Origin: Spirogloea muscicola
Taxonomy: Eukaryota > Streptophyta > Zygnematophyceae > Spirogloeales > Spirogloeaceae
Direction: 5' to 3'
DNA length: 21,960 nt
Assembly: GCA_009602725.1 (NCBI GenBank)
Contig: WELB01000287.1
Span: 107,562 to 129,521, forward strand
Part shown: one piece after another, positions 3 through 21,960 of the stretch
Layout: each line of letters starts with the position of its first letter
Position numbering within the stretch: the first letter of the stretch is position 1
Program-made: the position numbers and the translations under genes
The notes under the pieces: generated by a model
Database searches by the model: none
Seen by the model: only the letters and a program-made list of their open reading frames with translations
What the model was told of the DNA's origin: nothing

Positions 3-3000
3 GGCGGCGTGGAGGCCGCGGGCGCGCTCGCTGGCGGCATCGCCGCCTGCGCCCTGGCCCCCGGTGGCGACCTGCTGGCGCTCGTCACCGGCGCGGGCCG
101 CCTGCTGACGCTGACGCCCGAGCTCGACGTCGTCGCGGAGGTCGACCTCCTCCAGCACGCCGCTGCCGTGCAGCCGGCGGCACCCACCAAGGTGCCCTGC
201 TCTGCCACACCGCCGCCAATCCATGGGGCAGCTATATGTGAAGTTGACATAAGGAATACCATACCATAGGAACCACTGACAAAGAAGTATAATCAAGTCA
301 AGAATTTCCATCTGGGCTATTTGTGGCGGTCGCTGATTACGCGCGCTTCAGGTGGCAGCGGACGCGATGGAGGCGGCGGCTACGGCGGCAGAAGCAGACG
401 AGCTGGGTGCCGTGTGCATCAGCTGGCGTGGCGATGGCCGCTTCTTCGCCACGATCTCAGGGCCGGTCGGCGGCCGGCTCGTCCGCCTGTGGGAGGCTGA
501 CGGCTGCCTGCTGCACTCGTCCGCCGGCGGCCTACACGGCGCGCCTGTGGCGTGGCAACCCTCAGGCGCGTTGATCGTCGGCGGTGCTGCTAGCGGCGCT
601 GCCCTCTTCTTCGAGCGCAATGGCCTGCAGCGGGGGCCTCCCCTTGACCTGCGGGTGCCCGCCGGCGCTGCCATCGCCGACCTCCAGTGGAGCTGCGACT
701 CGGAGCTGCTTGGCGCTGTGTTGCGTGGTCCTACCTACAATTGCGTGCAGGCAAGGACCTCCCCTGAATTCGCACGAACAAATCGAGTATTCTAATGAGG
801 GTTTCCTAGTGTAACGTGTGTGTCTGTGATACTAGTGTGATGTGATGTCTGTTGTTGACTGGTGACATCTAGTCTGGGCATGAGACAGCTTCTTTGGATG
901 ACTGTATGTGAAGATGTCGATTTTGGACATTATGTTCAGCTGTTCCCTGCCCCATGCACTCCAAATACAGAAATTGTCAAGCTTGGACCTTGAACTCACG
1001 AAACTGAAGCACCCATAATCTATATCTGACCCTGATCTTACGCCTGGCATGGACACGTGATCTTCAAACCCAAAGGGTTTTGGGGCCTCCGGTCTAAGTT
1101 CCAAAGCACACTTCCTAAACCTTGTAGATGGTGGAATTTGATCAAGTGCAGATTTGGCACCGTAGCAACTACCACTGGTACCTCAAAGCGGAGTGGCGGG
1201 CAGCGCCCGGCGATGGCCTACACGTGAGGTGGGATGCTGAGCGGCCGCTGCGCCTGATGCTGTGGACAGAGGGTGGGGCACTGCGCCGCATTGACCTCGC
1301 CTGGTCCTCGGCTGCCGCTGGCTGTGCGTCTGGCACGGCCGCCGTGGTCGACGGCGCTGACGTGCTCGTCACGCCGCTCGCACGCGCCATCGTGCCGCCA
1401 CCCATGGCGCTTGCCCGCACGCGTTTTCGTGCACCCGTGCGCTGCTTGGACCTGGTCGTCACTGCGGGGGGCGGCTTGGAGCGGCTCGCAGCGGCCCTGG
1501 TAGACGGCTCACTGGCGGTCACTGATGTCCTCGTTGACGAAGCTCAGGAGGCTGAGGATGAAGAGCGAGAGGTGGGAACGACGTCTCTTGCTACTGTGGG
1601 GGCGCTGCACCTTCCAGATGCAGCAGCGGACAAGGCCGGTGAAGTGGTCCACCTTGCGTGGCTTAGCTCGCAAGTGCTCCTAGTCGCTACGGTCTTCACG
1701 GAGGACAGCGGTGGCACGGCTGCATGGCGCCTTCTCCTGATTGAAGTTGCTCAATACGGCGGCGGTTGCTGGTCAGGCACATTGGTAGCTCAGGCGTCAT
1801 TGGACGCGCCGGTAGTGCGCATGGCCCAGGTGTGGGACAGCGCCGGGTGCACCACCGGCGCGCTCGTGGAGCTCCATGGCGGTGCACTAGTTCGGGTTCC
1901 TGCAGCAGCAAAGGCAGGCCTCCCCTTGCTGGACGCCTCCCCAGCAGTCCTGGCCGCCCTGCCGTGCACCTGTCTGCAGCTCAGTGCAGTCGAGCTCGTG
2001 GCGACGGACGGCGGCGTAGTCGCTGTGGGACTGTCGGAGAGCGGCCGGCTGTATGCTGGGCAGGTTCTTGTCGCTGAGCATTGCACGTCCTTTGTGCTGC
2101 ACCGTGGGGATTCTGCCGCCGTTACGGTTGCGGATCACAGCAGTGCCAAGGAGACAGCCGCCATTGCAGCAGCCACGTTGCCGCCAGCCTGGAGTATTGT
2201 GTACCTGGTCGACGAGCGGCTCCATGTTGTGGACCTTGAGAGCGTGCTCTCGTCGAGAGCACCTGGCGCTGGTACAGAAGCAGAGGTGCAGGGGAGAGGA
2301 GAGAGGGGCCAAGCACAGCAGCGGCCTGCGCAGCCGGTGTGGGAGAAGGGTGCGCGCCTGGTGGCTGCTGCTCGCAGTGTCGGCTGTGCTGCCGCCAGCA
2401 CCTTCGGCTGCGCCCCTGTGGTCCTGCAGACACAGCGCGGCAGCCTGGAGACCGTCTTCCCACGATCGCTCGTCCTGCGCGGTGTTGCAGCGGTGCTGCG
2501 CGCAGATGACATTGGCCTCGCGCTTGCAGCGGCACGGCGTCACCGCCTGGACCTCAATGTGCTTGTAGACGGCCTCGGTTGGCGGCGGTTCGTGGAGCGC
2601 GGCGCGGTGCACCTTGTCCAGCAGGCCAATTTGGCACATGTCACTGAGCTGGTCTGCGCGCTACGGCGGGACAACGTTGTGACCGCGGGCGGCATCTACG
2701 AGGGCCTGCTGCCGCCACAGCATGGCGACAATAATGATGATGATGATGCGCCGCCTCCCGAGGGTAAGGTAACGGCAGTGTGCTCAGCCATCCGGCGCGC
2801 GCTGGAGGTGGAGGCGCCGGCCGGCCAAGCGCGCGAGGCATGCATCCTGACGACGCTGGCAAAGAGCGACCCACCAGAGTTGGAGGCGGCGCTGCATCGG
2901 ATCAGGCGCCTGAGAGACGAGGAGCTGCTCAGCAGCGCTGCTGCAATGCGAAGCTCTGACGGCGACGCTGCCCATTGTCTGCCGGCGCCGACCTCCGAGG

Positions 3001-5068
3001 ATGTGGCCGGCAGAGCAGCGAGTGGGACCGTCGCTCCATTGATGGTGGATGAAAGAGCAACAATTTGCACCAAAATGAGTGCCGAAGCTGCGCTGCGGCA
3101 CCTCATGTGGCTTGCAGACGGTGATCGTGTCTTTGACGCTGCACTTGGCATGTATGACTGCGGCCTGGCGGCAATGGTGGCATCACTGAGCCAGAAGGAC
3201 CCCGCTGAGATCCTGCCGCTGCTGCGCGAGCTCCAGTCGATGCCGATGCCGCTCATGCGGGCCACGATCGACCGTCGGCTCGGTAGGATAGAGAGCGCTC
3301 TGCGGAACCTCGCCCAGGCCGGCAGCAACCACCTTGAGACCTGCCTGCAGCTCCTGCGCGACCACCCCCTTCTTTTCCCAGCCGCCATCGCCATCTTTGC
3401 AGCGAGCAGTGGAGGCACCGAGCAGGCAGGCGGCAGCAGCGACGCTATGTCCCGTCAGCGTGTGCTGCAAGAGTGGGGCCAGCACCTGCAGGAAGCGGAG
3501 CAGTTCCGAGAGGCTGCTGGTGCCTTCGTCGCGGCTGGTCTGCCAGACAGGGCATTGGCGGCATGCCGAGCTGGGGGCTTATGGAGGGGCGCCATGCTGC
3601 TTGCGAGCCGGCTCAAGATGCCACCGGCCGAGCTCCGCGAGCTCCACAATGTCCTGCTGAAGGAGCTGCTGCACATGGGCAAGCATGAGGAAGCTGCAAG
3701 GTCAGTCGTGAGCCAAAGCTGGAAAGTATAGGGTCTGTGTTGAATTTCGGGTCTGAGGTCCTGAAATCCTTACATCAGTCTAAGTAAGTCAGCACCACCT
3801 ATCTGCTGAAGTCGCTCCACAAGGCACTACCATGCTGTGCTCACAAGTATTTCATGGACAGGATGGCCATGGAGTACTGCGAGGACAAGGTGGGCACCAT
3901 TGGGCTGTTGGTGCAGGTGCACCACTGGGAAGAGGCGGCCCGCATAGCCTACGTGCACGGGCTGGATGAAGTTGTGGATGGCATGATACGAGACAATGCC
4001 GTGGAAAGGGCACATGACCTGTGCCGGAGCTGCGTGGAGGGCGTCGAGAAGGTGGGCAGGTATATAGTGCAGTTTCAGGCACTCCGGCAGCGGCGCCGCC
4101 TGCTGGCGGAGAAGCTGGTGGAGGTGCAAGGCAGCAGAGGTGGAGACGACGGGATGGCAGAGGACTCTGCGTCTGAGTCAGGCAGCAGTGTCAGCAATCT
4201 GAGCCTCTACACTCATGGGTGAGGGGCTACCATCCCCCATTGATGCAGTGTCCTCTTGATTTCAAGTTGCTACTCAGCTGCTTGTGGTGCATGAATGCCC
4301 TGATGTAATAATTCAAACCTACCTTTCTTGCCGCATACGGCTTCAGGAGTCGAGCCACGGCGGCTACTTCTGAGACGGGCAGTGCCGCATCCAGCAGAAG
4401 AGCGAACCGCAAGCAGGCCAAGCTGGCAGCACGGGGGTTGAACCGCATTCGTGCAGGAAGGTGCATGCAGCTGTCTTCAAGAGCCTGGTGGTCGCACCCA
4501 TTGGGGCTCGTTCTATTCACATGTTGTTGGACTCGTTTCGCACAGCAGTGTCGTTAACAGCGGCTGTCTTGCATTTGCTCCCACACTGAGAGTGAGTATA
4601 CTGCCAGGGTATAGGATTGATGCAGAGCATGAAACCTCACCTAGCAATGTGTGTGCATGGTTATGGCTGCCCAGCCCTCAAGAGGAGCAGGCGCTGGTAG
4701 AGCACTTGGTGGGCCTGGCGCCGAGCGCGGCGCTCAAGGAGGAGGTGGCGCAGCTGCTCGACCTCCTCATCCTCCTGCAGCACGCGGACTTGGCAAGAAA
4801 GCTCCAGACGTCCCTCCATAAGCTGCTGACTAGCCACCTGGCTGCAGTGGCCAGTGTGGAGGCCGACCTGGCGGCCGACATGACTGCGCCTCTTGCAGCA
4901 GGAGGACGTGGTAGGGATGTCGTTGGCTCTGCTGTAGTGGACAAGAGGAACTGGCTAACTCCTCCAAGCAGAGCAGCCGATCTCCGCTGGGCACAGGCCA
5001 TCCTGGAGCCTGTGCCTGGTGAAGCCGGCCCAGGGAATGTGAAGCAGGGCAAGGTTGCATGGACTTGA
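3..5068 (+). CDS. ELP1: Elongator complex protein 1 (ELP1/IKAP), 5'-partial, six exons in window
   Basis: Scaffold and dimerisation subunit of Elongator (ELP1-6), which with ELP2 and ELP3 modifies wobble uridines of tRNA in the cytoplasm. Exons read: 1(partial)-191, 352-750, 1152-3700, 3862-4218, 4347-4460, 4675-5068. All phases agree, giving about 1,333 residues in the window; human ELP1 is about 1,332 in total, so roughly 100 N-terminal residues are missing at the left edge. Seen: WD40 propeller strands, including SWRGDGRFFA (exon 2) and the family hallmark VQ/IWHRSNYHWYLK across the exon 2/3 junction; VPPPM in exon 3; an alpha-solenoid in late exon 3 and exon 4 (HHWEEAARIAY); a Ser-rich then basic stretch in exon 5 (SSRRANRKQAKLAARG), matching the basic tRNA-binding region; and a C-terminal helical exon 6. 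The family is certain; the exact last codons are less so. The long open frames on the other strand are shadows. Confidence 0.93.
751..1151 (+). other. GC-AG intron in ELP1
   Basis: The exon 2 reading ends ...NCVQ with donor CAG|GCAAGG and exon 3 resumes ATTTGG (IWHRSNYHWYL) after ...AAGTGCAG. Human ELP1 has the contiguous string CVQLWTVGNYHWYLK, which fixes both borders to the codon. The available GT in TGC|GTGCAG does not restore this reading. GCAAGG fits the strong flanking consensus expected of GC-AG introns. The other ELP1 introns in the window are GT-AG. Confidence 0.75.
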
Positions 5069-6852: not shown

Positions 6853-7213
6853 ACTAAAAGGGACTCGTGGCCACTGCGTGCTATATGCTCAACATGCCTT
6901 TCTGAGCAACCGTTGTCAGAGAATGCGGTCTTCGGCTTGTGAATATTCCTTCCATGTCTTTCTTGCTCATGAAAGGCCGGTCCTTGGTGTCCCTCCGGCT
7001 CGCTTGCTCAAGTGCAAGGAAGAGCCATGAAGAAGATTTCGTGTATAAGAAACAAATGTAGCCCAAATGGCCAAGTACAAAGGCAAGCACATCTAAAGAT
7101 CTACTTAGCCTACAGCAGATTGACCCGCTCAATAATCACGGGTCAAAACACAAAGGTCACTAATCGATGCATGAATACTAGATGCCAGAAACGGAGCCCT
7201 TCTGCCACCAACT

Positions 7214-7295
7214 AGAGCTCGCCCAAAAGGGGGGCTGGCAAAGCCAGCCCAAAAAAGGATGGACAAAATCCAAAGAGCCAAAAGAGCGGCATAGG
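7214..7295 (-). repeat. retroelement tail module with perfect hairpin, minus orientation
   Basis: GAGCTCGCCCAAAAG is followed by GGGCTGGC-AAA-GCCAGCCC (7232-7250, 8-bp perfect stem) and then AAAAAAGGATGGACAAAATCCAAAGAGC. The order is the reverse complement of the type A tail (..GTCCATTCTTTTTTGGGCTGGC..GCCAGCCC..GGGCGAGC). Confidence 0.7.
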
Positions 7296-7371
7296 GTGCC
7301 GCCTTGCAATGACACCTGCAGCAAGGGGACTTCCGTGTATTTAAAACAAACGAAGGCCTGCAGCGGTCCTT

Positions 7372-7565
7372 AGCTTCTGTTGTCCACTTACATGCAGGTC
7401 GCGCAGTGGCTCTGCTCCGCCTCCGCCTTCCGTCAGAGCGACGCTTTTCCGCCCTCAGTTACTCTGATTTCCACTTGCTGACTAGAGGTTATTGTGCGCC
7501 TCTTGCTGCCGTCTTGGAGACTTGTATCCTGCTTTTTCCTTTGTCCATTCCTTTGGGCTCGCCTC
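7372..7565 (+). pseudogene. 5'-truncated non-LTR retrotransposon copy N1 (C-terminal end plus tail start)
   Basis: In frame from about 7372 it reads VVHLHAGRAVA...SYSDFHLLTRGY, matching the end of the intact copy at 11506-12189 (AVHSRAGCALVA...SYSDLMLLTRGY). The family stop TGA has become TGT at 7493-7495, so the frame reads on. The following sequence (GCGCCTCTTGCTG..CTTGGAGACTTGTATCCTGC) is shared with the copy ending at 9752, so the two have a common ancestor. A tail-like string GTCCATTCCTTTGGGCTCGCCTCTCACAGC closes it. Confidence 0.7.
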
Positions 7566-8239
7566 TCACAGCGCCGTGTCGACCTGGTGGCGTCAACGCC
7601 GGGCGGCGGTACGCCTATTATCCTAGCCTAGCATCTCTGATCTGCGGCTGCTTAGCTGGGATTACTGAGTGATTCGTAGCTGCTTTGTTTGTATGTGTGC
7701 TTGTTTTTTTTTAGCGCTTCCCCTGGCCCCCTTCTCGTACTCTGTTCATTCTTTTTTTGGGCTGGCTTTTCCAGCCCCTATCCTCAATGGGCGAGCACTC
7801 TCTATTATCGCTGATGTGGTCACCACTGATGTACTCGACGGCTCCAACCCGGGGCTCTCTGCCTCGCGGGCTGGCCATGCTGCGGCGAAAGCTGCTCGCA
7901 GCAAGGCGGCCACACACGCCGACCACCCTGCTGCAGATGAGTTTGTCCCTTGGCTGTGGACGTGCACGGGGCTCTCGGGTCCCAGTGGCTCGACCTGCTG
8001 GCCAGGCTTGCGCGGCACGCTGTGTCCCGCAGGTGCGGTGAGCCGGCCGACTTCAACGCCGCTGGCTCGTGGGCCCAAGTCTATCGTATGAGATTGTCGG
8101 TCTCCCTTCAGCGGTCCATGGCCCAAGCCTTGCATCTGCGTTCTGGCCGTGCTCTCGCTGCGGCCTCCGGTTTTCGTCAGGCTTTAGTTTTCCGGCAGCT
8201 AGTCTGTCGGATTTGAGGCTCCTCATCCGTAAGTATTGA
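7566..8239 (+). pseudogene. non-LTR retrotransposon copy N2, REL-endonuclease C-terminus, interrupted by N3
   Basis: Left part 7566-7622 reads QRRVDLVASTPGGGTPII; right part from 7810 reads ADVVTTDVLDGSN. Joined across the nested insertion they align without gap to RRADLVAIPPGGGPRIIADVVTADC of the intact copy. Downstream, GHAAAKAARSK, LAVDVHGALGSQWLDLLARLARH and RMRLSVSLQRSMAQALHLR are clear, ending SLSDLRLLIRKY with TGA at 8237-8239. One frameshift lies near 7946 (FVP/LAVDV) and another near 8190, so the copy is dead. The Asp/Asp/Lys pattern resembles the restriction-enzyme-like endonuclease of early-branching non-LTR elements, by inference. There is no 3' tail before the next copy. Confidence 0.8.
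7623..7801 (+). mobile_element. nested 179-bp 3'-end insertion N3 with 8-bp target-site duplication
   Basis: CTATTATC stands at 7615-7622 and again at 7802-7809. Between them lie the last codons of the family (PSISDLRLLSWDY, TGA 7666-7668) and a complete type A tail with the hairpin GGGCTGG-CTTTT-CCAGCCC (7759-7777), ending CAATGGGCGAGCACT. Removing the insert plus one repeat restores the host copy's frame exactly (..TPII|ADVVTTD..). This is a severely 5'-truncated insertion into an older copy, consistent with target-primed reverse transcription. Confidence 0.82.
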
Positions 8240-9075
8240 GTGGTCCGTCCTCCCCCGCGGCGCCGTCTACCACGCCATTGTGGAAGTAAGCAATGTAATG
8301 CCCATCACCACGGATTCCCAGGGACGCCATCACCGCCGCACCCTGGACAATGTGGGTGTACAACTTGTCGGAGGCCCACGAGCCTTGGTTGATGTCGTGG
8401 TGACGGAGGCATACAAGAATTTCGCTTTGACGCACATTGCTGGCCACGCAGTGGGAGGTGCTGAGCAGAGAAAGCTCCGACACTACTCTGACTACCCCCG
8501 CAGTGATCAACTCCTACCGGTGGCAATCGACACTTTCGGCTGCATCGGCCCTCGCTTCCACACCTTACTGGAGAATATTGCAAGTTTGGGATATGCTCGA
8601 CGTGAGGATAATGCTTCCAGCTCAGATGGGCATGCCGGCAGCCTACTTGTCATTTTTGCGTCATCGAGTGTCAGCTTGTCTGCAGCGAGCTCAGGCTCAT
8701 GCGTTACATCAGAAAGCTGGTCGAGCCTTAGCTGGTAGCTCTAGAGCTTGTCAATTGCCGTCCGGCATTCGAGCATCAGTTAGCGACCTCTATGTGCTGA
8801 CTCGTGGTTACTGAGCGGGTCAGCTTAGCAGCAGATGACGTACATTTGTCAATGTGCTTGCCTTTGTACTTGACAACACATGCCCCCCCCATCTCTTGAA
8901 ACACGCATTATTCCCCGTACTGCCATAGCTTCTTCAGGCCCCTTCTTGCCCCTTCGTAGCTGCTAAGTGATTTTGGCCTCTTCAAGCCTCTGTCAGTTTT
9001 CGGGCTGGCTTTTCACAGCCCTTGCCCCCACGGGGAGTGCCACTTCTCACAGCAACCAGTCAATCTGGCCGCGAT
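8240..9075 (+). pseudogene. non-LTR retrotransposon copy N4 (divergent) with type B/C tail
   Basis: Begins immediately after the N2 stop. It reads AIVEVSNVMPI...VDVVVTEAYKN...AGHAVGGAEQRKLRHYSDYP...LLPVAIDTFGCIG, colinear with VAVEHSSIMPP...IADVVTADC...AGHAVALAARSKERKYADHP...ALAIDVHGAYG of the intact copy, but much diverged. A frameshift near 8580 moves the end to another frame (VSACLQRAQAHALHQKAGRAL...SVSDLYVLTRGY, TGA 8812-8814). The tail holds a C run (about 8882-8889), then a type B unit (CTTCTTCAGGCCCC..GGGCTGGCTTTTCACAGCCCTTGCCCCC, hairpin 9002-9021) and a type C string (AGTCAATCTGGCCGCG). It is the most diverged long copy here, hence probably a distinct subfamily. Confidence 0.75.
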
Positions 9076-9520
9076 TTCGCCTTGTGTGCCATGCATGCGG
9101 CCCCTGACACACCGTGTCCATGATTGGGCTGGCCACTCACAGCACTTGCCGTAATGTGGAATAGCAATACCTTCAGCGGCGCTTGGGCCGACACGCCAGA
9201 AAGCATGTTTGTCGGTGTCCACCTGGAGAAGCTTAATTCGTCTGCTGAAGTTTAATTCACTCTGGTGCAAACCCCTGGCTGAGCCCAGAAGTGCGTGTTA
9301 CAACGACACGGCCTTCGCCACCTACCCCAGAGGGGCGACACGCCGAGGCCGCCACTACTTTGCGGGACCCTTGGGATCTTGTCCATCTTGTCCAAATCCA
9401 GGCTTGCCCACTTTTCGCGCTCTTTGGAGAGAGAAGAGGCGCGCGGTGCGCATGAGAGGAAAGCGATGCTAATTCAAAGCCAATACAATACATGGAAGAG
9501 ACGCTTTCTTATAGTAAAAC
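9076..9520. repeat. degenerate retroelement tail modules, mixed orientation
   Basis: At 9124-9160 a plus-oriented unit (TTGGGCTGGCCACTCACAGCACTTGCCG) is recognisable. At about 9430-9490 a minus-oriented string (AGAGAAGAGGCGCGCGGTGC, then GCATGAGAGGAAAGCG, then TTCAAAGCCAATACAAT) matches two strings in the right-edge copy (21490-21560 and 21763-21823). Nothing else is recognised between them and no gene is supported. Confidence 0.5.
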
Positions 9521-9689: not shown

Positions 9690-10130
9690 TATTGGTCACG
9701 CTTTTTCGCCCTCTAACTTTCATGATTGCACTTGCTGACTAGAGGTCATTGAGCGCCCACTTGCTGCTTGGAGACTAGTATCCTGCTTTTTGCGCCATCC
9801 GGCACCTTTTAGACCTTGTACAGTCCTTTGTCGCATTCGGATAATGTCCATTCTTTTCTGGGCTGGCTTTGCTAGCCCCCCTTTCTCTGTCCATTCTTTT
9901 TCGGGCTGGTTGTTCCAGCACCTATTCTCAATGGGCGAGCACTTTCTTCTTTTTCTGGGCGCTTCCCCTGGCCCCCTTCTTCTCGTCCTTTGTTGATTCT
10001 TTTTTGGGCTGGCTTTTCCAGCCCCTATTCTCAATAGGCGAGCACTTTCTTCTTTTTCTAAGGGCGAGCCCTTCTGTCTTTAAGCTGGCCTCTCACAGCC
10101 ATTGCCGTAAGTTGGGAAGAGCTGTTTGTA
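9690..10130 (+). pseudogene. 5'-truncated non-LTR retrotransposon copy N5 with several tail modules
   Basis: Only the last codons are recognisable (..ALLTRGH with TGA at 9750-9752), and the sequence after them matches copy N1 (CTTGGAGACTAGTATCCTGC). The tail carries hairpins at 9860-9878 (one G.U-type change), 9903-9921 (one mismatch) and 10006-10024 (perfect), and a type B-like unit near 10071 (AAGCTGGCCTCTCACAGCC). The doubled string GGCGAGCACTTTCTTCTTTTTCT ends two of the units. The copy has no coding capacity. Confidence 0.7.
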
Positions 10131-11121: not shown

Positions 11122-11215
11122 CAGCGCTTTTCGGCTCCTTCGACCCTTGTGTCAAGCATATTCCGGGCTGGCTTACTGTCCTCGCCCCTATGCAAGTGCT
11201 CATTCTCTTCGTTCA
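11122..11215 (+). repeat. single plus-oriented tail module inside the minus run
   Basis: Reads CGCTTTTCGGCTCCTTCGAC, then TTGTGTCAAGCATATTCCGGGCTGGC..GCCCCTATGCAAGTGCTC. This is a diverged tail unit in plus orientation, facing the minus units that begin at about 11250. The right arm of the hairpin is lost. Confidence 0.5.
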
Positions 11216-11249: not shown

Positions 11250-11505
11250 CGAGAGCGAAAGAAAGTGGCTCTCCCAATGGGGGCAAGGGCTGTGAAAAGC
11301 CAGCCCGAAAAGATTGACAAAAGCGTCGAAGGGGCCAAATGACGGAGGAGCCTAAAAAGGAAGAGCTCGCCCATAGAAGAGAGGGGCTGGCAGAAGCCAG
11401 CCAAAAAAGAATGGACAGAATCCAAAGAGCTACAACAGGTGCCGAAAAGAAGGGAAACACACAGCTAGGCATCTAGACAACTAGACATGACGAAACCACA
11501 GAAGC
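11250..11505 (-). repeat. 3' tail of copy N6, two hairpin modules
   Basis: Reading down from the N6 stop there is first a type A unit (GTCCATTCTTTTTTGGCTGGC-TTCT-GCCAGCC..ATGGGCGAGC; hairpin 11385-11402). It is followed by a type B unit (GGCCCCTTCGAC..TTGTCAATC..GGGCTGGCTTTTCACAGCCC..CATTGGGAGAGCCAC; hairpin 11288-11306). This copy shows best that the tail is a series of related units, each preceded by GGCCCCTT or TCTTTGG. Confidence 0.7.
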
Positions 11506-12189
11506 TCAATACCCGCGGGTGAGCAACATCAGGTCAGAGTAGCTCGGAGCTGGAAAGGATGCAGGCAGACGAGACCCGGAAGCAGCAACAAGAGCACAGC
11601 CCGCGCGCGAGTGGACGGCATGAGCTAGGGAGCGTTGAAGCGACACGGAGAGCCGCATCCGGAAGACCTGGGCCAGGGAGCCGGCCGCGTTGAAGCCGGG
11701 CAGCCCCCCTGGCGGATCCGGCCGCCGCTCCATGGCCTGCCGGGCAAGCCGCTGGAGGAGATCCAGCCAGCCGCTGCCATAAGCCCCGTGGACGTCTATG
11801 GCAAGGGCCGCGAACTCATCGCCTGTGGGGTGATCTGCATACTTCCGCTCCTTGCTCCGGGCCGCCAAAGCGACCGCATGCCCAGCTGTTGCCGCCGACT
11901 TGGAGGGATTGGCGGAGTCGACACAGTCGGCGGTCACCACATCCGCGATGATACGCGGACCGCCGCCGGGCGGGATGGCGACTAGGTCTGCGCGCCGAGT
12001 GTGGAGCTGACCATCGGCGCCGCGCACGGGGGGCATTATCGACGAGTGCTCCACGGCCACCTTGTAGCCCGCCTCGATGAAGACACCCTGCATGCCATCC
12101 CTGAGAAGGTCATGGGATCCGGTCCTCTCGCCGCCGTGGGCACATCGGAGCATGTGGGCCGCCAGCTCCGCGGGGTCGGCATGGCGGGC
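11506..12189 (-). CDS. non-LTR retrotransposon copy N6: intact C-terminal zinc-motif and REL-endonuclease-like ORF
   Basis: Open for 228 codons from just after a TAG (12190-12192) to TGA at 11506-11508. Order of motifs: HMLRCAHGG..SHDLLRDG, resembling the His/Cys zinc motif and following GG..R..HD segment that lies after reverse transcriptase in many algal and oomycete non-LTR elements. Next come RRADLVAIPPGGGPRIIADVV and AARSKERKYADHP (Asp, Asp, Lys spaced as in a PD-(D/E)XK-type nuclease), then DVHGAYGSGWLDLLQRLAR, RMRLSVSLQRSLAHAVH and SYSDLMLLTRGY. No reverse transcriptase domain is present, so this is a 5'-truncated copy with no sign of its own promoter. It is the only long copy here without frameshift. 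The endonuclease assignment is inference from motif order. Confidence 0.72.
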   Translation of the reverse strand, partial: ARHADPAELAAHMLRCAHGGERTGSHDLLRDGMQGVFIEAGYKVAVEHSSIMPPVRGADGQLHTRRADLVAIPPGGGPRIIADVVTADCVDSANPSKSAATAGHAVALAARSKERKYADHPTGDEFAALAIDVHGAYGSGWLDLLQRLARQAMERRPDPPGGLPGFNAAGSLAQVFRMRLSVSLQRSLAHAVHSRAGCALVAASGSRLPASFPAPSYSDLMLLTRGY

Positions 12190-12192
12190 CTA

Positions 12193-12345
12193 AAAGCGCG
12201 ATGTCAGAGAGGGTGTAGAATGGACCACTCGGGCGAGGCAAACGGCCGCCCCGTCTTGGTGGCCGAGGAGGTTGCCTCGGTCAAAAGCGGGGGTCGTGAG
12301 CACGTCGGCAATGATGCGCCGGCCAGCCGAGCGTGTGAGGGGCGA
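12193..12345 (-). pseudogene. non-LTR retrotransposon fragment N7, immediately upstream of N6
   Basis: On the minus strand the frame that ends at TAG 12190-12192 reads RRIIADVLTTPAFDRGN...DGAAVCLARVV, aligning with RIIADVVTADCVDSANP...GHAVALAAR of N6. It is in the same frame as N6 but upstream of N6's zinc motif, so it is a separate truncated copy. This repeats the head-to-tail pattern seen on the plus strand at N1-N4. Its own 3' half is missing. Confidence 0.55.
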
Positions 12346-12470
12346 GCTGGCCTCGTGCGGGGGAGTGTGTGAGGAACACGGGGAGGGAGTGCGTGGGGCA
12401 CGAGGAAGTGAGCGTGGGGGAGGCAACGACGACAAGGCAATAATGGCATGGTACAGGGAGAGTATCTCGC

Positions 12471-12732: not shown

Positions 12733-12761
12733 GGGTCGACCCACCAAGGTCGACCCACCAA
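12733..12761. repeat. 14-bp tandem repeat with palindromic core
   Basis: GGTCGACCCACCAA stands at 12734-12747 and 12748-12761. The first unit lies within the perfect palindrome GGGTCGACCC (12733-12742), and a decayed third copy, CCGGGTCCC, follows. Confidence 0.75.
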
Positions 12762-12785: not shown

Positions 12786-12945
12786 ACTGGCTTTTGAGGC
12801 CCCGTTCCGACATAGCTTCTTCAGGCCCCTTCGTAGCTGCTAAGCGCTGTTTGGCCCCCTCGAAGATTTGTCAATTCTTTCCGGGCTGGCTTTCACAGCC
12901 CTTGCCCCCGTTGGGAGTGCCACTTCTTCTCTTCTTAGAGGGAGG
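12786..12945 (+). repeat. type B retroelement tail fragment
   Basis: The run from GACATAGCTTCTTCAGGCCC through TTCGTAGCTGCTAAGCGCTG and TTGTCAATTCTTTCCGGGCT to the hairpin GGGCTG..CAGCCC (12884-12902) and CCCCCGTTGGGAGTGCCACT closely matches the tail of N4 (8927-9050). No coding remnant precedes it, so it is a tail-only insertion or a relic. Confidence 0.7.
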
Positions 12946-13175
12946 CAATTCCGTGGAGGCCAAATGGCCAAGTTGAGGGCGTGTTTCTCATAAGGACCTG
13001 CGAACAAGCGGAAGCTATAAACTAGCTGCTTCTTCTCCTCCTGCACTTACTATAGTGGTACGGATGAGGGGCCGGTCCCATCATGACGGGCACAAGCTGG
13101 GCCAGCTTGGTCGGAAGCCCAATGGCGAGACGGAGCGGCTGCTTTGTTGGACCCAATGCCTGTCTATGTTATGTC

Positions 13176-13471
13176 CTGGGGCTGCTTAGCAGGGTTACTG
13201 AGTGTCTCGTAGCAGCTTTGTTTCTGTTACTTAGCGCTTCCCCTGGCCCCCTTCTCGTACTCTGTTCATTCTTTTTCGGGCTGGTTGTTCCAGCCCCTAT
13301 TCTCAATGGGCGAGCACTTTCTTCTTCTTCTACTGAGTGATCTGCAGCTGCTTTGCTTCTTTGTGTGCTTGTTTTACTTAGCGCTTCCCCTGGCCCCCCT
13401 TCTCGTCTGTTGATTCTTTTTTGGGCTCGCTTTTCCAGCCCCTATTCTCAATGGGCGAGCTCTTTCTTTGA
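13176..13471 (+). mobile_element. tail-only retroelement insertion N8 flanked by a perfect 28-bp direct repeat
   Basis: A perfect 28-bp direct repeat (begins TGGACCCAATGCC, ends TTATGTC) lies at 13148-13175 and 13472-13499. Between the two copies are the last few codons of the family (GGGCTGCTTAGCAGGGTTAC; one G is lost, so the stop is out of frame) and two tandem type A tails. The second tail restarts with TACTGAGTGATCTGCAGCTG near 13333. Hairpins lie at 13278-13296 (perfect, loop TTGTT) and 13423-13441 (one mismatch). The direct repeat ends exactly at the insert borders, as expected of a target-site duplication. Confidence 0.82.
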
Positions 13472-13499
13472 TGGACCCAATGCCTGTCTATGTTATGTC

Positions 13500-14160
13500 A
13501 CCTGACCATTTCAATAAAGGATTTCCTCGTGTTTGGCAGTATGTTCTTGCCATCAGGTCAGCAGCCTAGTCCGCAGGTCGCCCGTTGAAAGCTGATAATC
13601 TGCTCTTCTGCAGCACTTACATCTTGCCGCCCGATTACAAGCAGATTAAGCGCCCGAATACATGCTGCATCGTCTGGCGGGGCCTGTCAGATAGGCGCCT
13701 GATGTGCATCTGCATATGCAAAGGGGCTCGCGCTTGAAGCCCCTCATCTTCAACTGCTAATTGCTCAAAGTTGCCACATTTTGGTCTTACCCAACTTGTG
13801 GCTCCAGCTGGGAGCTGCATCATACTTGACCGCAATCCTCTTGCTGTGATTTGGCCTTCTGCATACACTTGCCTTTATCGCATTTCCTCATATTCCTTGT
13901 CATCTTCGTCATTCTTGCCGGCATAATACATTAGCAATGTAACCCCAATCCTAACCCAAAATGTAATAAGCCAGAAGCCGAGGCTCCCCACTGCGCCCCA
14001 TTTGTCACAAAGCCAACTGGCCGTCATCGTGGCAATGTGTGCAAAGCACGACGTCCTCTAAACACTACTGAAGTTGCCAATCTGTATTGCACGTCTCAAT
14101 CTGTATTGCACGTCCAGGTCTTGGAGTGCACTTCGTGCAGTTTAGGCAAAGGCATGGGGT
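13500..14160. other. intergenic, no gene seen
   Basis: AT-richer single-copy-looking DNA without a convincing ORF. It holds a 19-bp tandem duplication (CAATCTGTATTGCACGTC at 14078-14095 and 14097-14114) and an AATAAA near 13512 with no gene to serve. Confidence 0.5.
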
Positions 14161-14183: not shown

Positions 14184-14605
14184 AGCCACTTTGGGGCGCT
14201 GGGCGCTCGGTGGCTCGAGCTGCTCACCCAGCTCGCCCGCCACACCATCGCCCGTCGCTTCCATGGGGAGCTGGTAGACTTTCCTCCAGCCGGGTCGCTG
14301 GCGCGAGTGTATCGTATGCGCCTGGCCGCTCGCTGCAGAGGTCTATGGCCCGCGCGCTGCACCTTCGTGCTGGCAGAGCCCTCGCTGCTGCATCTGGCTC
14401 TGGCCAGAGGACCCACTTCCAGGAGCCTAGCATCTCTAATGTGCGGCTGCTTAGCAGGGGTTACTGAGTGATTTGTAGCTGCTTTGTTTCTTTGTGTGCT
14501 TGTTTTTCTGAGCGCTTCCCCTGGCCCCCTTCTCGAACTACGTCATTCTTTTTGGGGCTGGCTTTTCCAGCCCCTATCCTCAATGGGCGTGCACTTTCTT
14601 CTACT
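14184..14605 (+). pseudogene. 5'-truncated non-LTR retrotransposon copy N9 with type A tail
   Basis: Reads SHFGALGARWLELLTQLARH...FPPAGSLARVYRMRL, then a frameshift near 14325 into RSLQRSMARALHLRAGRALAAASGS...PSISNVRLLSRGY, stop TGA at 14465-14467. It aligns with the last third of N6 and best with N2/N3. The tail is a complete type A unit (GTGATTTGTAGCTGCTTTG..GCGCTTCCCCTGGCCCCCTT..) with a perfect hairpin at 14555-14573. It is nearly the same as the tails of N3 and N8, so this branch was recently active. Similar strings GGGGTCTAAG (left) and GGGGTCTTAG (right) may be a worn target-site duplication. Confidence 0.75.
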
Positions 14606-15574: not shown

Positions 15575-18002
15575 ATGGCGGCTTCCCTGGCGAGCCTGGC
15601 GGGGCCTCTGGTCGTCCTCGCCATCATCCTCGCAGCATCTTGCAGTGCGGTGAGTGCACACCTTCTCGTGAACTCGCGGTGCAGCTTTGCAGCCCCTCCG
15701 TGGCAGAGCATGGCGGTTGCCTGTTGAGCGCACCCTGGCTGCATGTATGTCCACTTTGCTGATGAAGATCTGTCTGCTCGCGTTGCCCTCTGCCTGCAGG
15801 CCCGAGCAGCTCATAGAGGCAACAACAATGCAGAGAGTATGTCTGGCTAACCTTGAGCCTTCTGTACGAGATGTGCACTACAAGCAGAGTCCCGGGCTTG
15901 GCAAGATCTCTGCTTGGATTTGATGAAGATGGGATTTGCAGAGGTGGACCTAAAACACGCAATGCATGAGTCTGATGCGGAACTCCTGGGGGCCCTGCGC
16001 AGTGGAGCCAATGAGAGGATCGACGCGCCGCCAGCTGATTGTTATTAACTCATCTACACTCTCGCATCATGGTGGTCGAGTGTTCAACAACCCCATATCA
16101 ATCAATATCGTATGGTATGGACATTATCTGGATCAATACTGATTGTGCTGTCACCCAGTGATGTCATGGCAGTTGGCAGTTGGCTTCCTGGGGTTTCACT
16201 GTACAGCTGCTAGCATGTCAGCACTGCCCTGCTGACCTCGGAAAATTTGAGGATCTGCAGGTATGGCCCAGACTGGACGGCAGGCCAGAAGTCCATCATC
16301 CTTGACTTCTTCAGCTCCATCTCTGCGTCTGCAACCGCAGGAGCTCGTGAGGTCCTAATCTTGTGAATGCGCATCCACTTGTGCATGCAAGCATACCTTT
16401 GTCCAGCTCAAGAAACTGGCCTCGTCTCTCCACAGCGTCACTTTATTGAAAAGATACTGACGATGCCTGCACCCATCCATGCTCACAGCAGTGTCATCAG
16501 GCACATGCAGGTATTGATGCACTCCACCTGCTTGTCCCAGGTCAAAAGTTGGTGGAACATTGCTAGGCAGTACTACAACAACAAAGGCGCATATGTGACA
16601 GGGTTGGTCAAACAAGGCTGGCAGTACGATGACACTGGATCATCTGGACTCATAAATGTGGCTCCTCAGGTGATTAGAAGTCTACCCCATGCGTCACTGG
16701 AAAGCCTTGGACAACCACTTCCAGCGTGGTTGTTGAGCCTCCGCAACTTTTTCTCGAATGCTCTGGTTTGTGTAAGCTCGCCTGTATTCAGGCCACACTA
16801 AGTCGAAGGGTGTATATATCTGCAAGCTTACGCTGTCCTGCCTTGATTATCTCCGAGATGTTCTGTGTGCAGACGATACTCACGAATGTTCTGAAAAGGC
16901 ACGGCATCAAGAATCCAGATATTTATGCGTTGCACCTCATCCTTACCAGCCGTAACGTGACCGTGAAGGACCCGCTAGCAGGAACCTTTTGCAAAGACGT
17001 GAGTGCTGGTTTCGTTGCTTCCTTCAGCCTCTTCACTGGCCAATGTTTGTATGTGAGCTGCACGACGTTGATGTGTGACACAAGCAACAGTCGATTGTCT
17101 GGCTAGTAAACTGAGCCTTGTACTTGATATTGCAGTACTGCGCTTTCCACAGCAAGATGAATATCAATGGAAGCGATACTGTAAGCATCACATCATGTGG
17201 ATGCTGATGTCGTGGCTAGCTCGCACTGGCTTGAGACGTTGTCCTAGCTTGATTGACTTATGTCCTGCCAAGAAGTTCGGCCAAATCAGGTCATTTCCTT
17301 CTTGACTAACGCATCTGTGCTCGTGCTCCAGATCTTCTCCTTCGTAGGCAATGCTGATACGCAATGCCCAGGGTCAGTCTCTACTTCTCAAGCCCTGGCA
17401 TGCTGCAGTTGATGTGCGGCTGTACGTATTACAGAAGGACTACGCATAGAGGTAGTATGTGCAAGGTCTGGTTTGTGAAGTAGCCGCTGACAATCTGCTC
17501 CGCATGCATCATCACAGGCAGTGCTCTCAGGATTACACCAGCGCTCCTAGCCCCAACAGCGACAAGGGAGTGGATGCCATGATTAGCCTTCTTGGGGTCA
17601 GCTGTCTGCCACTGCGTCAGACGCAGATATGAACGCTTGGTACGACCAGAATGGCAAGGAAGGCAACGATCTTTGCCAGTACACATATGGCAGCTTCTTG
17701 ACGGCCAGCAATGGTGCATCCTACAACTTGAATGGCATCAATGACAGGTAAACCTGACTCCTCAGATGTGGCTGGCGGTGTTGATGGTTTAGGACACCTC
17801 CTGCTGGCAGCTGAGATCTCATTCTGAAGAAAATGTAGAAAGCTCACAGACTCCGCTAGCGTGACCAATGCAAGTACCCTGCCTGCTCCAAATGCAATTG
17901 TCAAGATCATTGACCTGGCCTTTGTTAGTGATCACTTGCAGGAAGTTTGTTGTGCAGCAAATATACAACCCCACCACTGCACAGTGCGCATCAACTGCAT
18001 GA
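15575..18002 (+). CDS. EXORDIUM / phosphate-induced protein 1 family, secreted; ten exons, one-base deletion in exon 9
   Basis: Family known from plants (EXO, PHI-1) as extracellular growth-related proteins; the biochemical role is unsettled. Exons: 15575-15649, 15800-15836, 16003-16114, 16261-16351, 16541-16669, 16873-16998, 17136-17180, 17332-17372, 17518-17747, 17942-18002. All borders are GT..AG and phases agree throughout. About 315 residues, the usual length. Seen: signal peptide MAASLASLAGPLVVLAIILA; HHGG...INIV/WYGPDW..GQKSIILDF; SWWNIARQYY; YALHLILTSRNVTV; TFCKDYCAFH; FVGNADTQCPGQC; DKGVDAMISLLG; MNAWYDQNGKEGNDLCQYTYGS; GASYNLNGINDRKF; terminal YNPTTAQC. Oddity: between LLG (to 17596) and QLSATAS (from 17599) only two bases remain, where fungal and bacterial relatives have HEL. 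Either the gene is newly broken or the sequence has an error. The start was chosen for the signal peptide. Confidence 0.85.
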
Positions 18003-21479: not shown

Positions 21480-21960
21480 CAATCGGAGACGAGAGGAGGG
21501 CGCCGCGCGGTGCGCATGAAACGAAAGCGAAGGCCGATTCAAGCCAACAAGTTGTTCAGGCCCCCAAGAAAAACGAATGACGAGCTGAGCTCTTCCGGAA
21601 TCGTGATCTTCCTACATGGAACTTGCTTGTCAATGTGATACAAGAAGAAGTGGCTCTCCAAAAGAGAGATAACCAAATTAACTGGTGGCTGGGAGAGGCC
21701 AGCCCCGAGAAGCAAGCGCGGCCAGATTAACTGGTGGCTGGGAGAGGCCAGCCCAAAGAGAGAAGGCGCGCGGGGCGCATGAATTGAAAGGGAGGCCAAT
21801 TCAAGCCAATACATTGTTCAGGCAGAGTCGAGTGCAGACTAAACAATGCTACATAATACGGAGACCTAATCTAAGGTACCTAAGATGACATTAGTACCCA
21901 CGGGTGAGCACAAACAAATCTGACAAGCTAACTTGGGGAGCTGGAGCGCCGCCACGAAAG
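21480..21960 (-). mobile_element. non-LTR retrotransposon copy N10, 3' end and long tail, runs off right edge
   Basis: On the minus strand the last 70 bases read FRGGAPAPQVSLSDLFVLTRGY and stop TAA at 21893-21891, the family C-terminus with a different stop codon. The tail (to about 21480) has two copies of a GCCTGAACAA..TTGGCTTGAAT..CATGCGC..CGCGCG string (21767-21823 and 21504-21560). It also has two type C hairpin units, each GGCTGG-GAGAGG-CCAGCC on the plus strand (21687-21704, 21736-21753). The 5' part is beyond the window, so completeness cannot be judged. Confidence 0.75.
21677..21754. repeat. 29-bp direct repeat inside the N10 tail, 49-bp spacing
   Basis: ATTAACTGGTGGCTGGGAGA plus GGCCAGCCC occurs identically at 21677-21705 and 21726-21754. 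Each carries the type C hairpin. It shows recent duplication of a tail unit. Confidence 0.8.

Follow-up and report, generated by a model that had tools for sequence, protein, structure and literature searches.

A short 5'-truncated LINE-type copy nested in an older copy of its own family

How did a piece made only of the last codons and 3' tail of a repeat family come to lie inside the coding region of an older copy of that family, and does its position show that the family targets itself? We examined this in the window, the whole stretch of 21,960 nucleotides of DNA analysed. The answer we favor, with a probability of about 0.87, is that the 179-bp piece (T1) is a severely 5'-truncated copy of LINE (non-LTR) type, whose reverse transcription started from the 3' end, at a nick in the older, related copy (N2), and left an 8-bp duplication there.

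The 179-bp insertion and its host copy

The features on which this reading depends are as follows.

7623..7801, + strand: T1, the 179-bp insert: a 5'-truncated copy with the last codons and the 3' tail; 90% identical to 14424-14599
7615..7622, + strand: target duplication CTATTATC, left
7802..7809, + strand: target duplication CTATTATC, right
7573..9044, + strand: N2, host copy, enclosing T1 and either enclosing or joined to N3; type B tail at 8913-9044
14193..14600, + strand: T6, nearest relative of T1, coding end and tail

An earlier note on this DNA had described a nested, 5'-truncated insertion with an 8-bp duplication, and the description held. An exact-match search of the window found CTATTATC on the + strand at 7615-7622 and 7802-7809 only, with 179 bp (7623-7801) between the two copies. 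Positions 7625-7803 aligned with 14424-14599 at 89.9% identity over 179 columns (E 6e-62). As the note had also read it, the insert contains the last codons of the family (PSISDLRLLSWDY), then a stop, then the 3' tail; its coding end taken alone is a weak match (tblastn with the 215-aa ORF, E 5). Only CT lies between the tail motif of T1 and its duplication.

The host copy is continuous across the insertion. N2 reads RLSQRRVDLVASTPGGGTPII / ..RRVDLVASTPGGGTPII before T1 and ADVVTTD.. after it, and the corresponding uninterrupted reading in the copy at 11506-12189 (- strand) is RRADLVAIPPGGGPRIIADVVTAD. When the flanks of N2 were joined without T1, they aligned to 11506-12189 (- strand) across the junction (78% over query 123-189, with the junction at 148; E 2e-8), which bears out the earlier statement that removal of T1 restores the host reading. 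The copy used for this comparison had been called intact and is really a 5'-truncated C-terminal fragment with an 8-bp duplication of its own (GCCTAAAA). N2 carries an additional frameshift, being matched by tblastn in two pieces (7804-7944 in frame 1 and 7950-8177 in frame 3). The site of T1 falls between two spaced aspartates of the supposed active site, directly before the second.

A chance direct repeat is rejected on the strength of this host continuity together with a random-breakpoint control, in which a repeat of at least 8 bp was found in 30 of 20,000 pairs drawn in 5.2-15 kb, a region that itself contains real repeats (a repeat was counted if it lay no more than 3 bp from both breakpoints). 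A DNA transposon is also rejected, since 5' ends vary and no terminal inverted repeats were reported at the insert ends. The short length of T1, and a tail that is repeated several times in the window, would suit a SINE or other non-autonomous element with a borrowed LINE tail. Such an identity is extremely unlikely and we reject it, because the piece contains the end of the reading frame and its nearest relative, at 14193-14600, extends 5' into coding sequence.

Target-primed reverse transcription most likely made these insertions; it would fit the variable 5' truncation, the fixed 3' region and the duplicated targets. Two LINE hallmarks were found here: copies of the family have differing 5' starts and a common 3' region, and target duplications of variable length (8, 9, 8 and 34 bp, the last 33/34 identical) occur at four insertions. 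Everything past insertion with duplication is what we infer. The note had suggested checking whether other tails lie next to duplications of 7-30 bp, and of 12 tails scanned a duplication could be accepted for four (T1, 8 bp; T5 with T4, 34 bp with one mismatch; T8, 8 bp; T10, 9 bp). T3 has a 13-bp repeat that is possibly common tail sequence; the remaining seven had no duplication above chance.

Layers of insertion between two host genes

T1 is not alone: family insertions that run in the same direction are stacked in layers between the ELP1 and EXORDIUM-like genes. The genes and the other members of the pile are listed here.

352-5065, + strand: exons of the ELP1 (elongator subunit 1) gene; Pfam beta-propeller, solenoid and TPR domains
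16260-17590, + strand: exons of a Phosphate-induced/EXORDIUM-like gene; Phi_1 (PF04674), E 2.3e-24, exons joined by eye
7214..7286, - strand: T7, tail directly beside another same-strand coding end
7358..7563, + strand: N1, third copy, coding end and tail; the tail resumes after 9053
7564..7572, + strand: duplication TCTCACAGC around N2, left, within the N1 tail hairpin
9045..9053, + strand: duplication TCTCACAGC around N2, right
8240..8872, + strand: N3, further copy within the N2 stretch, boundaries approximate
9726..9886, + strand: T0, copy with split tail, ending at about 10055-10072
9887..10054, + strand: T2 and T3, head-to-tail tails within the T0 tail
11263..11339, - strand: T12, type B tail downstream of the 11358-12187 copy, same strand
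11350..11357, + strand: duplication GCCTAAAA, left
11358..12187, - strand: longest coding fragment (ORF 11506-12189) and tail T8
12188..12195, + strand: duplication GCCTAAAA, right
12800..12927, + strand: T11, type B tail
13142..13175, + strand: 34-bp repeat, left, 33/34 identical
13176..13465, + strand: T4 and T5, head-to-tail tails
13466..13499, + strand: 34-bp repeat, right

The two genes mark the window as eukaryotic, and the gene set together with the style of the repeats suggests a green alga. Two more nested insertions have recovered empty sites. N2 as a whole (7573-9044) lies between the 9-bp copies of TCTCACAGC, and its joined flanks form a tail that matches 21758-21714 (- strand) across the junction (89% over 45 bp, E 8e-12). 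T2 and T3 interrupt the tail of T0. Once the two halves of that tail are joined, with a 5-bp overlap (TTTCT), the alignment to each of two other tails runs through the join (E 1.3e-13 and 4.6e-13). The copy at 11358-12187 (- strand) is bordered by the 8-bp GCCTAAAA at 11350 and 12188; joining its flanks produced no alignment that spans the junction, so the duplication is the one piece of evidence for its insertion. Directly upstream of this longest copy, at 12193-12435 (- strand), is a decayed fragment (RRIIADVLTTP..) that is possibly its insertion host. T4 and T5 lie head to tail between the two copies of a 34-bp direct repeat that is longer than the other duplications in the window and has no other match there. 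No repeat of at least 6 bp was found between the two stretches searched around N3, and no duplication was found for T7.

All eight of the nested or abutting pairs that we placed by hand run in the same direction (T1/N2, N2/N1, T2/T0, T3/T2, T5/T4, the 11358-12187 copy/T12, T0/the hairpin at about 10080, and T7/the coding end at 7072-7176). We put no probability on 8/8, because empty sites back the first three pairs only and T3/T2 and T5/T4 are possibly single events. Neighbors on opposite strands exist, for example 11130-11191 (+) beside 11263-11339 (-), and no nesting was seen there. Self-similar repeats together with the hand-listed coding pieces of the family cover about 52% of 6.5-15 kb; coverage elsewhere is 0.75% (1-6.5 kb), 0% (15-20.9 kb) and 18% (20.9-21.96 kb). 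The copies are therefore clustered, as had been claimed. The companion claim of self-targeting is not demonstrated by such nesting, because a family that fills about half of 6.5-15 kb is expected to receive nested hits.

Three other accounts of the pile have to be weighed. Its arrays may have arisen by template jumping, or by tandem duplication and unequal exchange, instead of by separate insertions. The head-to-tail arrangement of T2-T3 and of T4-T5, the latter within one outer repeat, is consistent with this, as are the lack of a duplication at N3 and a 13-bp repeat at T3 that could be common tail; T1, N2 and the T2-T3 pair each split a recognizable host copy, with different duplications, and the 5' end of T1 is unlike those of its neighbors, which makes this account doubtful. 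A composite that moved as a unit, with T1 already in N2 when N2 entered N1, would explain why N2, including T1 and N3, is enclosed by one pair of 9-bp repeats. The duplication of T1 is internal to N2, however, and the window has a single T1/N2 junction (CTATTATC). We consider this order of events very unlikely, and the insertion of T1 is itself independent of it.

A dedicated form of self-targeting, in which a protein or RNA recognizes the family's own 3' region and inserts in one direction, would be rather unlikely in our judgment. The common direction of the eight pairs argues for it, as does the placement of seven of them in or beside the host 3' end or, for T7, near the end of the coding part. 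LINEs with a restriction-like endonuclease (RLE) are, for the most part, target-specific according to the portion of PMC4640811 cited here, and Zepp elements are said to target existing copies (PMC8226300, in the portion cited). Against this, host positions vary (within, after or before the hairpin, and in the coding region for T1), about half of the interval is already family sequence, T4 and T5 lie between copies of a 34-bp repeat for which the window has no other match, and two of the eight pairs may be single events.

The 3' tail and the coding region

The note had put the 3' end of the element near GGGCGAGCACT. That motif is near the end; the end proper is a pyrimidine run, because most copies continue past the motif with TTCTTC-like letters. 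The 12 bases after the terminal motif contain on average 9.5 pyrimidines in 12 tails (T0 included, T9 left out), compared to a background of 5.95, and none of 20,000 resamples was as high. T7 is the exception (4/12). In these 12 bases no run of A was longer than 2 in any of the 12 tails.

A hairpin, GGGCTGG..CCAGCCC, precedes the pyrimidine run, with 89.2% of 120 cells paired in 20 copies and at most 58.3% in slid versions. This inner hairpin shows no paired changes, and 197 of 500 shuffles reach the same pairing because its columns hardly vary. Around it a closing helix can be drawn in the tails listed here.

+ strand: tails with closing helix, ending near 7803, 9947, 10050, 13322, 13467, 14599, 9046 and 12928
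Minus strand (-): tails with closing helix, ending near 7210, 11358, 14836 and 11260

In these 12 tails 72 of 84 cells of the closing helix are paired, a value reached by one of 20,000 shuffles (slid maximum, 52). Between two subfamilies, G-C changes to U-A at one position, and U-A to A-U and G-C at another; the count of pair types is unremarkable (1,908 of 20,000 shuffles). The closing helix is suggestive only, given its hand-placed arms and the relatedness of the sequences, and we regard it as a candidate for the structure recognized in reverse transcription. We somewhat favor the conserved 3' hairpin as the part that the reverse transcriptase grips. Folds of four single tails gave z scores of -0.87 to -2.51 relative to shuffles, a loose search with the hairpin pattern gave one match, not above chance, and Rfam gave no match at gathering scores. 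Other short repeats were seen in the window. A 57-nt repeat family is present at 9427-9483, 21491-21547 and 21754-21810, matching the reference copy at 72-74% and adjoining, at 21754, a third type of tail hairpin, and there are perfect short tandem duplications of 19 bp at 14078-14114 and 14 bp at 12734-12761.

A range of D-Xn-D spacings is used in the signature of RLE-type LINEs. The longest copy (11509-12189, - strand) has D-X14-D at residues 68-83 and KERKY, a KX2KY motif, at 113-117, and N3 has D-X14-D plus KLRHY. Among 200,000 shuffles of the longest copy, 46 had D-X12-14-D followed 15-45 residues on by KX2KY, a pattern that was chosen after seeing the sequence. The first K of KX2KY, which lies in the second helix, serves as the catalytic lysine of LINE restriction-like endonucleases (PMC5678591, in the part cited). 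For GXW, which lies shortly past the fourth strand in RLE-type LINEs, the copies show by eye GSGW, GSQW and GARW, a GXXW pattern. D-X14-D and KX2KY suggest that the C-terminal region of the protein is probably a restriction-like endonuclease of the LINE kind.

Independent searches for relatives gave little. An AlphaFold model of the coding region was too poor for a test of the fold (mean pLDDT 42.9, pTM 0.39), and a sequence search of the PDB found no solved relative. In a Pfam scan of 45 reading frames, from a window with 85 ORFs of at least 80 aa, the ELP1 domains alone reached the cut-off; weaker matches were far below cut-offs (for example TrmO_N, 0.018, and Ssol_1539-like, 0.1). The scanned frames contained no reverse transcriptase and the window no full-length element; the copies seem to begin too far downstream to include a reverse transcriptase. 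No relatives were found in viral_contigs (proteins, patterns) or genome_contigs (pattern, protein), a result of little weight since these collections hold viruses, bacteria and archaea. In the literature consulted, much of it in partial text and with Repbase and most subscription papers outside its scope, no paper was recognized as describing the family.

Relation to known LINEs and a possible route to one-direction arrays

The arrays resemble those of Zepp and Zepp-like LINEs of green algae (Coccomyxa C-169, Chlamydomonas), which in the cited portions of PMC8226300 and PMC3446292 form nested arrays mostly of 3' ends with frequent 5' truncation. The same portion of PMC3446292 describes nested Zepp clusters, one per chromosome, and that of PMC8226300 assigns Zepp to L1. 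Unlike L1-group Zepp, the coding region here has the C-terminal D-X14-D/KX2KY signature. The tails differ also in lacking poly(A), with A runs of 2 at most after the motif, whereas Zepp elements end in poly(A).

Other LINEs share the signature. The RLE-type elements R2, R4, CRE, NeSL, HERO and Utopia likewise have KX2KY after spaced acidic residues (PMC5678591, as excerpted); compared to these, no reverse transcriptase, CCHC zinc knuckle upstream of the endonuclease or fixed target site was seen in the copies here, which start far downstream. Dualen/RandI, a LINE group that occurs in green algae, has an APE as well as a PD-(D/E)XK-like endonuclease, as the cited text of PMC8226300 and PMC3636483 has it, and the upstream part, where an APE would lie, is missing from the copies here.

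A mechanism that would yield such a pile can be proposed. A nick adjoining a pyrimidine-rich stretch would start target-primed reverse transcription, with priming at the pyrimidine tail of the element RNA, and an early stop would leave only short 3' ends behind. The sense strand of the family's 3' region is itself rich in pyrimidines, and for that reason later copies would land there, in the same direction. We give even odds to the proposal that insertions prefer sense strands rich in pyrimidines, such as those of the family's own 3' ends, and that a one-direction pile-up would thereby arise without a dedicated self-targeting device. A more specific version, which we consider unlikely, would have a green-algal lineage of RLE-type LINEs, separate from L1-group Zepp, in which the pyrimidine-rich hairpin tail is both template end and preferred target; the resulting one-direction arrays of 3' ends would be a second, independent route to Zepp-like self-piling.

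Piling of 3' ends is a behavior already known, and what is new may be the family that shows it. The locus provides three nested insertions of a probably algal LINE family with empty sites given at the level of the base, together with a candidate 3' RNA structure. Should the family belong to the restriction-endonuclease kind, green algae would have self-piling 3' ends beyond the L1-group Zepp elements that have been linked to centromeres.
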